Origin: Thermoleophilia bacterium
Lineage (GTDB): Bacteria; Actinomycetota; Thermoleophilia; Gaiellales; Gaiellaceae
Direction of reading: 5' to 3'
NCBI GenBank assembly: GCA_029865325.1
Contig: JAOUHF010000005.1
Span: forward strand, 1-50,181
DNA: 50,181 bases
Part shown: positions 35,621 to 50,181 of the stretch, piece by piece
Numbering within the stretch: position 1 is the stretch's first letter
Layout: every line of letters begins with the position of its first letter
Program-made: the position numbers and the translations under genes
The notes under the pieces: model-generated
Databases searched by the model: none
Told to the model about the DNA's origin: nothing
The model's input: only the letters and a program-made list of their open reading frames with translations

Positions 35621-36082
35621 ATGCTCCAAGCCGGCGATCGGGTTCCGGAGGTCGAGGTCTGGGCGGCGCCGCGCGAGGAACCGCAGCCGCTGAACGAGAT
35701 CCTTGGCCCCGGACTGGCGCTTCTCTGCTTCTACCTCTGGGATTGGTCGCCGACCTGAACGGACGAGCTCGTGCTCCTGCGGGACAGGAGCCAGGATCTC
35801 GCCGAGGCCGGCGTTCGACCGCTCGCTGTCTCTCGCGACTCCCCCTGGTCGCACCGGGCCTGGGCAGAGGTGCTCGGGGTCGATGTGCCGCTTCTATCAG
35901 ATTGGAACGCCGACGCGACTCGCGCTTTCGGTGTCGCTTTCGAGCCGCTCGGGATGGCGGATGTCCCCATCCGGTCGATGTTTCTCATACGGGACGGTCG
36001 GGCGATCGTCGCGGCCTGGATGCTCGGCCGTGAGCTACCGGACATCGACGCGGTGATCGAAGCGGCTCGCGCCGCGTCGTGA
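35621..36082 (+). CDS. Selenocysteine-containing peroxiredoxin (TGA at codon 46)
   Basis: A 153-residue AhpC/TSA-type peroxiredoxin-like selenoprotein. Reading TGA 35756-35758 as selenocysteine gives LCFYLWDWSPT-U-TDELVLLRD, where U replaces the peroxidatic Cys in the family's F-Y-P-x-D-W-S-P-x-C-T-x-E-L motif. The frame then continues normally through VRPLAVSRDSPWSHRAWA, VDVPLLSDWNADATRAFGV and MFLIRDGRAIVA, all typical of peroxiredoxins, to a TGA stop. One cysteine remains (Cys36) and none follows U, so it is a 1-Cys type and needs an external reductant. ATG 35621 abuts the GCS2 stop. A hairpin 21 bases after TGA is the likely SECIS. Without Sec insertion only a 45-residue stub would be made. 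Confidence 0.88.
35773..35791 (+). promoter_or_regulatory. Candidate bacterial SECIS hairpin in the peroxiredoxin gene
   Basis: GCTCCTG and CAGGAGC form a perfect seven-base-pair stem with loop CGGGA. The loop begins 22 bases after the TGA and has G at its second position, matching the spacing and loop-G rule for bacterial SECIS elements recognised by SelB. It is embedded in coding sequence. Confidence 0.65.
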
Positions 36083-46039: not shown

Positions 46040-47605
46040 GTGGACGTTCTTCGTGCGACGGTGCTGCTCGCAGAGCTACCGCTCGAGCGCACTCGGCTCC
46101 TCGACAACCTCGGCAGGATTCGCCGCGAGATCGGCCCCATCGGCCCGGAGCTCTCGGACGCTCTCGCCGATCACATGAACATCCGGCGCGGCGAGGTGCA
46201 CGAGGTCGTCTCGTTCTATTCGTTCCTACAAGTTTCCGCCGATGCGGTGCGCGTGTGCACGGGACCCGTATGTGACTGCTTCGGCGCCCGCGAGCTGCTC
46301 GAGCGCACTCCGGGCGCGATCGAGGTCGCGTGCCTCGGTCACTGCGATCTCGCACCGGCGATGACGCGCGGAGACGAGATCGTCCCGCAGGTCACCCACT
46401 CGACGAACAACGGCCCGGCGGTCGGGCTCGGCGCGAGGGACGAAACGCTCGCCGAGTACGCGGCGCGGGGAGGCCTCGACCTTCTTCGGAACCTTCCGCC
46501 GCTCGAGCGAATCGTGGGCGAGTTGAAGGCATCGAGTCTCGCCGGGTTCGGCGGCGCCGGCTTTCCGACGGGTGTGAAGTGGGAGGCGGTCTCACAGGAG
46601 CAGGGCCTGCCATTCGTCGTCGTCAACGCGGACGAAGGCGAGCCGGGAACCATCAAGGACCGCTATGTGATGGAGCTTCGCCCGCACCTCCTCATCGAGG
46701 CGACGCTGATCGCGATGCGCTCGCTCGACGCCACCGAGGGGTACATCTACCTGCGCGAGGAGTACGCGACCGCTCGCCAGAGGCTGTTTCGAGGCATCGA
46801 GGAATTCCAGGCCGCGGGCCTGCTCGAAGGGCTCTCGCTCGAGCTCGTCATCGGAGCAGGCGCCTACATCGCGGGCGAGGAGACGGCGATGCTCGAATCG
46901 ATGGAGGGCCGCCGGGCGATGCCGCGCCTCAAGCCGCCGTTCCCGAGCCAGGTCGGCTATCTCGGTCGCCCGACGCTGATCAACAACGTGGAGACGCTGG
47001 CGCACATCCCGGCAATCCTCCGGAACGGAGGCGAATGGTGGGCGGACCTCGGAATGCGCGGTGCTTCGGGGACGCGGCTGTGGTCCGTCACGGGCGCCGT
47101 CGGCACGCCGGGTTGCTACGAGGCGCCGAGCGGCCTGACGACACGCGAGCTGGTCGACGAGTACGCAGGCGGCTTTACCGGCGACGTAGGCTCGATCGTT
47201 CCCGGCGGCGCCGCGAGCGGGATCCTGCCGCCCGCCGCGATCGACGCGCCGCTCACGCGTGACGGGCTTCGGGAGTACGACGCCGGGCCCGGCTCGGCGG
47301 CCGTGCAGGTCTTCCCCACGTCGTACTCCCCGCTTCGCCTCCTCGCCGAGACGATGCGGTTCTTCGCCGAAGAGTCTTGCCAGAAATGCACGCCGTGCCG
47401 GATCGGCAATCGCGCGCTACACCACCTCTTCGAGGAGCTGGTACACGGCAAAGCTGCGATGACGCGCGAGAAGGTCGACGAGTGGCTGCTCGCGATGGAG
47501 AAGACCTCGATCTGCGGTCTCGGCCAGTCCTCGCCGTTCCCCGTGAGAAATGCGATGGAGTGGTGGCCCGAACTGTTCGCCCCGCTGGAGCAAGGTGTAG
47601 CGTGA
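46040..47605 (+). CDS. NuoE-NuoF fusion: NAD-reducing subunit of soluble formate dehydrogenase
   Basis: A 521-residue diaphorase subunit passing electrons from formate dehydrogenase to NAD. Residues about 1-125 are NuoE-like with a thioredoxin-fold 2Fe-2S site: VCTGPVCDCFGA and ACLGHCDLAP supply the cysteines. Residues about 150-521 are NuoF-like. The FMN loop is GFGGAGFPTGVKW, the NADH-binding part includes NADEGEPGTIKDRYVM, GAYIAGEETAMLESMEG is a signature segment, and the 4Fe-4S cluster is held by ESCQKCTPCRIGN and the Cys in SICGLG. The stop overlaps the fdhA start (GTGA), so the two form one complex. Confidence 0.92.
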   Translation: MDVLRATVLLAELPLERTRLLDNLGRIRREIGPIGPELSDALADHMNIRRGEVHEVVSFYSFLQVSADAVRVCTGPVCDCFGARELLERTPGAIEVACLGHCDLAPAMTRGDEIVPQVTHSTNNGPAVGLGARDETLAEYAARGGLDLLRNLPPLERIVGELKASSLAGFGGAGFPTGVKWEAVSQEQGLPFVVVNADEGEPGTIKDRYVMELRPHLLIEATLIAMRSLDATEGYIYLREEYATARQRLFRGIEEFQAAGLLEGLSLELVIGAGAYIAGEETAMLESMEGRRAMPRLKPPFPSQVGYLGRPTLINNVETLAHIPAILRNGGEWWADLGMRGASGTRLWSVTGAVGTPGCYEAPSGLTTRELVDEYAGGFTGDVGSIVPGGAASGILPPAAIDAPLTRDGLREYDAGPGSAAVQVFPTSYSPLRLLAETMRFFAEESCQKCTPCRIGNRALHHLFEELVHGKAAMTREKVDEWLLAMEKTSICGLGQSSPFPVRNAMEWWPELFAPLEQGVA

Positions 47606-50181
47606 CCGAGATGGTCGAGTTCACGCTCGACGGCCGAAAGGTCGACGCGAACGAGGGCGAGTTGATCGTCCACGCTGCAGCGCGCCACGGCACCTTCATC
47701 CCCACGCTCTGCCACGACGACAAGCTCGATCCGTACGGCGGCTGCCGTATGTGCGTCGTCGACGTCGAGGGCGCGCCTCGCCCGCTGCCGGCCTGCGCGA
47801 CCCGGATCACGGAGGGGATGGCCGTCTCGACCAACGGGCCCATCACCGACTTCCAGCGCACGCTGACCGAGATGCTCCTCTCCGAGCACCTGAGCACGTC
47901 CCCTGGCGGCCGCCCCAACGAGCTGCTCGACCTCGCCAACGAGCTCGGCGCCGAAGCGCCGTTCGTCCTCCCGGACGCGAAGCGCGAGGAATACGACGAC
48001 CGCAACCAGCTCATGGGCTACGACCCCGACGCGTGCATCCTCTGCAACCGCTGCGTCCGCTATACGCAGGAGGTCATGCAGTGCTCTGCGCTCTCGCTCG
48101 AAGGTCGTGGCGGGGACGCCCGGATCGTCCCGACCTGGGGCCTCTCCTGGCTCGACACCGAGTGCGAGCTGTGCGGGGGCTGCCTCTCGGTCTGCCCAAC
48201 CGGAGCGATCTACGAAAAGTTCGAGGAGGGCACGAAGGCCCCGGAGCGCAGCCTGGAGCAAGTTCGAACGACCTGCACGTTCTGCGGCGTCGGCTGCCAG
48301 GTCGACCTCAACCTCGACCCGCAGACAAAGCACATCGTCAAGGTCACCTCGAAGAGCGAGTACCTCCCGAACGAGGGCAACCTCTGCGTGAAGGGCCGCT
48401 TCGCATTCAACTTCGTTCACCACCCGGATCGGCTCACTCAGCCGCTCGTGCGTGGGGACGACGGGGAGCTCCACCCCACGACGTGGGAGCACGCGATCGA
48501 GACCACCGCCACCAGCCTCAAGAAGACCATCGCCGAGCACGGCTCGCAGTCCGTCGGCTTCCTCGCGTCCGCGCGCCTGACGAACGAAGAGAACTACCTC
48601 ATCCAGAAGCTCGCGCGCACCGGAGTCGGGACGAACTCCGTCCACTCCTGCGAATCGACCTGACACGGTCCAACTCTTTACGGCCTGGTCAGGTCGTTGG
48701 GCAGAGGAGCCAGCAGCAACTCGATCGACGAGATCGAGAACGCGAAGTTCCTGTTCGTGATCGGCTCGAACACAACCGAGGCCCACCCGGTGCTCGCGCT
48801 TCGCATCAAGAAGGCCGTGCGAAACGGCGCCACGCTCGTCGTCGCCGACCCGCGGAAGATCTGGCTCACGAAGATCGCGAAGCACCACCTCCAGCTGCGG
48901 CCGGGGACGGACGTGTGGCTGCTGAACGCGATGATGCACACGATCCTCTCCGAGGGTCTTCAGGACGACGACTACATCCGCGACAACACGGACGACTTCG
49001 ACGCCGTCCGAGAGGTCGTCATGCGGTACTCGCCCGAGGACGCCGAGAAGGTCACCGGAGTGCCGGCAGCCGAGATTCGCGCAGCCGCACGCGGCTATGC
49101 GGAGGAGCGGCACGCCGCGATCTTCTACACCCTCGGGATCACCGAGCACGCCTGCGGTGTCGACAACGTCTGGTCGCTCTCCAACCTCGTCCTGATGACC
49201 GGCCACCTCGGCTACGAGTCGACGGGACTGAACGCCCTTCGTGGACAGAACAACGTGCAGGGCCTGAACGACTCGGGCGCGAACCCGATGTACCTCCCCG
49301 GCTACCAGTCGGTCGACGACCCCGAGCTCAGAAGGAAGTTCTCGGAGGCATGGGGCGCCGAGGTGCCCGAGACCCCCGGGTACCGGCTCGACCAGATGAT
49401 GAGCGGACTCCACGACGGCCGCGTCCGGGCACTCGTCCTCATCGGTGAGAACCCCGCGCAGACCGAGCCGAACGCCCGCCATGTCGAGGAGGGGCTCGGA
49501 AAGCTCGATTTCCTGATCTCGCAGGACATCTTCCTCCACGACATGACGCGCAAGTACGCGGACGTCGTGCTCCCCGCGTCGAGCTTCGCCGAGAAGGACG
49601 GCACGTTTACGAACACCGAGCGCCGCGTCAGCCGGGTGCGCAAAGCTGCGCCGCTTCCGGGTGAGGCGAAGCCCGACCTCGAAATCATCCTGCTGCTCGC
49701 GAAGGCACTAGGCGCACACTGGCCGGAGTACCCGGACGCGGAGTCGGTCTGGAACGAGCTCGCGGACCTCGCGCCTGCCTGGTACGGCGTCCGCTACGAC
49801 CGGCTCGAGGAGAACGGCATGCAATGGCCCGCTCCGGAGATCGGTCATCCGGGGACGAAGTTCCTGCATGCGCCGCGTCCGGCGCGGCCCCCTGGCAGAG
49901 GAAAGTTCTTCCCGGTCGAATACCAGCGGCCGATCGAGGAGCCCGATTCCGAGTACCCGCTCGTCCTCTCGACCGGCCGAACGCTCTACCACTACAACTC
50001 GGCGACGATGACGATGCGCGAGTCGGGGATCAAGGACAAGCAGGAGGATCCGTTCTTCGAGATCTCCGCAGAAGACGCCTCCGTGCTCGGTCTCGGTGAG
50101 GGCGACTGGGCGCGTCTCGTGTCGAGACGCGGCGACCTCGAGGCCAGAACACACATCTCGGGACGGGTCTATCCCGGGCTT
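47602..50181 (+). CDS. fdhA: Selenocysteine formate dehydrogenase catalytic subunit (partial, runs off window)
   Basis: The 5' 860 codons of an NAD-linked molybdenum/tungsten formate dehydrogenase; the 3' end lies outside the window. The N-terminal NuoG-like part has a 2Fe-2S site (TLCHDDKLDPYGGCRMC...PACAT) and two 4Fe-4S ferredoxin sites (CILCNRC, CELCGGCLSVCPTG). The catalytic domain has its own cluster (TCTFCGVGCQVDL, NEGNLCVKGRF) and the molybdopterin folds. TGA 48661-48663, codon 354, reads as Sec in SCEST-U-HGPTLYGLVRSLG, the family's U-H motif; the frame stays open and conserved (NNVQGLNDSGANP, GENPAQTEPN, DVVLPASSFAEKDGTFTNTERR). A SECIS-like hairpin follows. GTG 47602 (GTGA overlap) or ATG 47611 is the start. 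Confidence 0.93.
48670..48700 (+). promoter_or_regulatory. Candidate bacterial SECIS hairpin in fdhA
   Basis: CCAAC (48670-48674) pairs with GTTGG (48696-48700) and GGCCT (48682-48686) with AGGTC (48691-48695), leaving the loop GGTC and a seven-base 5' internal bulge. The loop begins 24 bases after the TGA. The apical GGUC matches the loop sequence of the well-studied E. coli fdhF SECIS. Confidence 0.7.

Follow-up and report, generated by a model that had tools for sequence, protein, structure and literature searches.

The window analysed here, 50,181 bases long, is a whole contig (C61) of a draft Gaiellaceae genome of 2.59 Mb in 192 contigs. Its final gene, fdhA, starts with GTG at 47602 and runs off the end of the window; counted from that start, its frame is interrupted once, by a TGA at codon 354. 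The features on which the analysis turns are the following.

35621–36082, + strand: peroxiredoxin, a predicted second selenoprotein gene, with TGA at 35756–35758 (DWSPT-U-TDEL) and the hairpin CUCCUG-CGGGA-CAGGAG.
46040–47605, + strand: NuoE-NuoF fusion, the diaphorase/electron-transfer subunit (FdsG plus FdsB-like), recognized by its open reading frame and Pfam domains and overlapping the start of fdhA.
47602–50181, + strand: fdhA; 860 of its codons, one of them TGA, lie in the window, and contig C21 of the genome supplies the last 40 residues and the TGA stop.
48661–48663, + strand: UGA codon predicted to specify selenocysteine (U354) in the motif U-H-G-P; its counterpart in 6tg9 chain A is Cys386.
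48680–48697, + strand: predicted SECIS hairpin ACGGCCU-GGUC-AGGUCGU, with a 7 bp stem (48680–48686/48691–48697), the loop GGUC at 48687–48690 and 23 nt from the UGA to the loop.

The first-pass annotation of this DNA had proposed that fdhA reads through its TGA, and the sequence bears out the description on which this was based: the codon precedes H-G-P-T-L, 506 open codons separate it from the window end at 50181, and a mechanical ORF finder cuts the gene at 48663, as was anticipated for a reading without selenocysteine. The suggested extension past 50181 also succeeded. Contig C21 overlaps the window end by 172 nt with one mismatch and supplies the remaining 40 residues and the stop; fdhD lies ~3.3 kb beyond this tail (215.7 bits).

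The predicted protein scored 730.6 bits against TIGR01591 (formate dehydrogenase alpha; cut-off 666.25) and contains Fer2, 4Fe-4S, Molybdop_Fe4S4, Molybdopterin and Molydop_binding domains. Its best match among solved structures was the formate dehydrogenase alpha subunit 6tg9 chain A, which we take to be FdsA of Rhodobacter capsulatus, with residues 5–860 aligned. Just upstream, the NuoE-NuoF fusion carries 2Fe-2S_thioredx (10–89), Complex1_51K (163–324) and NADH_4Fe-4S (434–513) domains, so that the N-terminal Fer2 and Fe4S4 domains of FdhA and a NuoE/NuoF-like partner together give the layout of an NAD-linked, FdsABG-like formate dehydrogenase. The earlier designation as NAD-linked FdhA was therefore retained, and these sequence matches support identifying the protein as the catalytic subunit of an FdsA-type formate dehydrogenase, soluble and NAD-linked. 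One relative has an ORF between the NuoE-NuoF gene and fdhA (L063:4320–4967), which presumably resembles a REP-associated transposase.

Counted in the structural alignment, U354 faces Cys386 of 6tg9 chain A, which we assume to be the catalytic residue; this agrees with the annotation's placement of the TGA at the catalytic Sec/Cys position. Of 129 Gaiellales genomes searched, 109 gave some match, and 19 full or near-full fdhA orthologues were recovered at 76–100% identity, the window's included (the 18 others are 76–90% identical to the window FdhA). Each of the 19 contains exactly one stop, a TGA at the Sec codon, in the motif UHGP or UHAP, and the 506 codons downstream of it were aligned and conserved. 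The annotation had also called for a comparison with Cys-containing homologues, and Cys was found at the Sec site in all nine of the remoter order homologues read there (L041–L049). In a scan of named genomes comprising 79 loci, 53 had TGA (18 from Gaiellales, duplicating 18 of the 19 order orthologues, and 35 others), 8 had Cys, and the remaining 18 lacked the site or could not be compared there. Homologues are thus not consistently split at this position: close ones keep the TGA as their only stop and remoter ones carry Cys.

These comparisons bear on one alternative, that the TGA is a real stop produced by a recent nonsense mutation, by decay to a pseudogene or by a sequencing error, and that what lies downstream is a relict or a separate gene. 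The split made by the ORF finder is in its favour, but all 19 orthologues share the TGA and the conserved 506 codons behind it, and these facts, with the Cys found at this site elsewhere and the frozen codons behind the TGA (see below), leave it a negligible probability.

Two further observations concern the wider collection of matches. A second Sec-FdhA type exists within the order (L050, L051 and L159, from G114 and G015); L050 and L051 have TGA at the Sec site, and the catalytic subunit is possibly split, the stretch of L050 with the molybdopterin domain showing no Molybdop_Fe4S4 domain and an equivalent of residues 3–276 lying separately downstream. Among the matches listed in the order search, no genome had both FdhA types. 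In Desulfovirgula, Desulfofundulus, Pelotomaculum and others (L080–L086, L088, L090), the fdhA match spans ~3.5 kb versus 2.6 kb; the Sec-bearing ORF itself is of normal length, and a second related gene nearby has perhaps been joined into the match.

The genome was also considered for the machinery of selenocysteine insertion, which the annotation had expected to be active in the organism. Genes for selA (524.8 bits), selB (330.8 bits; cut-off 242.25) and selD (352.9 bits) were all found over their cut-offs, as was tRNA-Sec (selC; 64.1 bits, cut-off 47), to which ARAGORN assigned the anticodon UCA; an absence of selB or selC, which would have told against the proposal, is disproved. Across the order, 85 of 129 genomes had a selA match, which exceeded the cut-off in 77; among the 85 were 16 of the 19 genomes with a TGA-containing fdhA (14 over the cut-off); G070, G080 and G099, which are 78–86% complete, were not among the selA matches though they carry TGA fdhA. 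G055, from the same genus and assembled as a single contig, gave no match to selA or to the peroxiredoxin, and its best FdhA match carries Cys.

In the peroxiredoxin gene, the in-frame TGA takes the position of the peroxidatic Cys. Matches to it occur in 78 of 129 order genomes, most with one TGA and some without. Sixteen loci were fetched, and a motif search found TGA in 12 and Cys in one and missed three; in the 12 TGA loci the core CUCCUG-CGNGA-CAGG or a close variant lies behind the TGA, though in some of them another structure has the lowest energy. The annotation's selenoprotein call for this gene is well supported, since most matches across the order keep the TGA. Elsewhere in the genome, a thioredoxin/TlpA-like gene (L057; G000:C37:7029–7364, − strand) has TGA in WSSW-U-STC and a GGUC-tipped hairpin of its own whose loop starts 20 nt after the UGA, making it a third candidate selenoprotein.

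One in-frame UGA in each of two window genes could also arise if UGA had been reassigned to an ordinary amino acid, or were read as Trp or Cys without Sec machinery. However, fdhA and the peroxiredoxin both end at TGA and, because fdhA does so on C21, UGA is not a sense codon genome-wide; moreover, the genome has the full Sec machinery with tRNA-Sec(UCA), and each of the extra TGAs falls at a catalytic redox position and is followed by a hairpin. We give both readings next to no credence.

The hairpin behind the fdhA UGA was compared with a published bacterial SECIS model that specifies a loop of 3–9 nt, a stem of 4–16 bp, G in the first two loop positions, a distance of 16–37 nt from the UGA and a minimum free energy of at most −7.5 (PMC13188914). 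The fdhA hairpin fits this description, with a loop of 4 nt, 7 bp, GG, 23 nt and −8.2 kcal/mol. Folding energy proved uninformative as proof of the hairpin and was set aside: when the same codons were recoded synonymously, 1,485 of 2,000 recodings folded as stably as the real sequence, some better. The hairpin therefore rests on conservation, not on energy. In a codon alignment of the 19 genes, 269 columns hold one and the same four- or six-codon amino acid in every gene, and only 20 of these use one codon throughout; within codons +7 to +13 all six such columns are single-codon in all 19 genes (hypergeometric P = 7.8e-8, ignoring shared ancestry). The frozen codons include AGG, a minor Arg codon (57 of 1,164 Arg codons in these genes), and the longest run of identical codons gene-wide, in an ungapped alignment, is +6 to +11, on the hairpin. 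When the same 20 codons were recoded synonymously 20,000 times, GGUC appeared as the loop of a stem of at least 7 bp in only 6 versions, and 3,545 had some stem of at least 7 bp with G at the loop start. Covariation within Gaiellales was absent in the 19 orthologues since the stem never varies. An outer stem, CCAAC/GUUGG, was considered as part of the SECIS and rejected, as it varies without compensation among orthologues.

Selenocysteine might be inserted at U354 while the hairpin is not the SECIS, some other structure or the protein sequence accounting for the conservation. The unexceptional folding energy would allow this, as would the finding that the lowest-energy fold of the UGA-containing stretch is a different helix. 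Against it stand the conservation at synonymous sites, centred on the hairpin; the GGUC loop, common to E. coli fdhF and to 36 of 37 hairpins from other Sec-FdhA genes; and the folding of 19 of 19 orthologues into the hairpin when read from behind the UGA. We judge this alternative very improbable, and conclude that the hairpin at 48680–48697, certified by its conservation, is very probably the SECIS and a putative target of SelB.

The position of the hairpin is what distinguishes the Gaiellales genes. In all 19, the stem occupies 17–23/28–34 nt after the UGA and the loop GGUC starts at 23 nt. In the 37 other Sec-FdhA genes (the 35 named loci together with L050 and L051), a six-pair stem lies at 13–18/24–29 nt with its loop at 18 nt, in every case; the loop is GGUCU in 36 and AGUUU in one. 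The stem of this 18-nt family covaries, pair 15–27 appearing as five standard pair types across the 37 sequences. A full 18-nt-register stem occurs in 0 of 19 Gaiellales genes and a full Gaiellales stem in 0 of 37 others. In a tree of 63 sequences, with eight of the 19 Gaiellales genes as representatives and built by a quick method with SH-aLRT support only and some long branches, Gaiellales stood beside the Planctomycetota Sec-FdhA L079 (SH-aLRT 100). Because this sister has the 18-nt form, the 23-nt form appears derived, and the arrangement is most simply derived by a move of the SECIS 5 nt away from the UGA in the Gaiellales lineage. An independent gain of Sec from Cys in Gaiellales was also considered, but the tree puts the order next to a Planctomycetota Sec sequence within a group in which Sec predominates, so that relocation of a pre-existing SECIS is preferred. 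Since the published distance range is 16–37 nt (PMC13188914), the 23-nt form is a variant within a known kind.

The helix that competes with the SECIS hairpin has two arms.

48656–48664, + strand: 5′ arm CGACCUGAC, which contains the UGA and would pair with 48688–48696; its function is putative.
48688–48696, + strand: 3′ arm GUCAGGUCG, made up of the SECIS loop plus 3′ arm, identified by folding.

When the UGA was included in the folded stretch, ACCUGAC paired with GUCAGGU and this was the lowest-energy structure in 19 of 19 orthologues. The z-score of −2.39 obtained for the UGA-containing stretch reflects this helix and was discarded as evidence for the SECIS. The Thr codon before the UGA is ACC in 18 of 19 genes and ACU in one, both of which keep the pairing, and at most other invariant Thr columns ACG is preferred or usage is mixed. 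It is conceivable, but unlikely, that the Gaiellales SECIS, shifted by 5 nt and so by a non-codon step, is one half of a two-state RNA in which a ribosome at the UGA would free the SECIS, recoding then being gated by ribosome traffic. Four pairs of the helix, however, follow automatically from UGA-C and the loop, and the helix may simply result from UGA-C lying opposite the loop.

Taken together, these results indicate that fdhA almost certainly encodes an FdsA-type formate dehydrogenase catalytic subunit whose active-site residue is selenocysteine, specified by the UGA at 48661–48663 and the hairpin at 48680–48697. Sequence itself shows the UGA and its conservation, the Cys in homologues, the genes of the Sec machinery, the gene order and the constraint on the hairpin. 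According to the model, SelB carrying Sec-tRNA-Sec(UCA) would bind the hairpin via its GGUC loop when the ribosome reaches the UGA, and would deliver Sec in place of a release-factor stop. Sec354 would then ligate Mo or W in the bis-pterin cofactor, and the Fe-S clusters at the N-terminus would probably relay electrons to the NuoE-NuoF subunit and on to NAD.

Judged by its sequence, fdhA is a typical and well-supported case of the selenoprotein family most widespread in bacteria; what is unusual is the position of its SECIS. FdhA has been described as the bacterial selenoprotein family with the widest distribution, its motif being given as UHxP (PMC13188914), and 822 organisms are listed for it (PMC5029168). 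In the titles or abstract starts of the open-licence literature, we found neither a paper on a Sec fdhA from Thermoleophilia, Gaiellales or Gaiella nor a report of a SECIS register shift. The Sec reading makes one gene of what mechanical gene calling splits, and the prevalence of selA shows selenium use to be common in a little-studied actinobacterial order. The nearest outgroup has the 18-nt form, and a 5-nt shift within a single gene family constitutes a natural experiment on the UGA–hairpin distance that SelB tolerates.

The hairpin had been likened to that of E. coli fdhF (L061), and the likeness holds for the letters of the apical GGUC loop and for the UGA-CAC-GG context, but not for position: the fdhF loop lies 18 nt after the UGA rather than 23, and its stem has an unpaired U that the fdhA stem is without. 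The FdsA-like Sec-FdhA proteins of Moorella (L087, L089, L091) resemble the window protein in length and layout, have the Sec codon at its position, a GGUC-type hairpin and 45% identity to it, and differ in having the loop at 18 nt and UHAPTVAGL where the window has UHGPTLYGLVRS. The Planctomycetota sequence L079 is the nearest relative found outside the order, at 50% identity and sister in the tree, whereas its hairpin is the 18-nt form GUGGCC-GGUCU-GGUCAC. R. capsulatus FdsA (6tg9 chain A) is a homologue over the full length (residues 5–860) but has Cys386 where the window FdhA has U354. Finally, the Gaiellaceae locus joins NuoE and NuoF in one ORF, in contrast to R. capsulatus, where FdsG and FdsB are, we assume, separate proteins.
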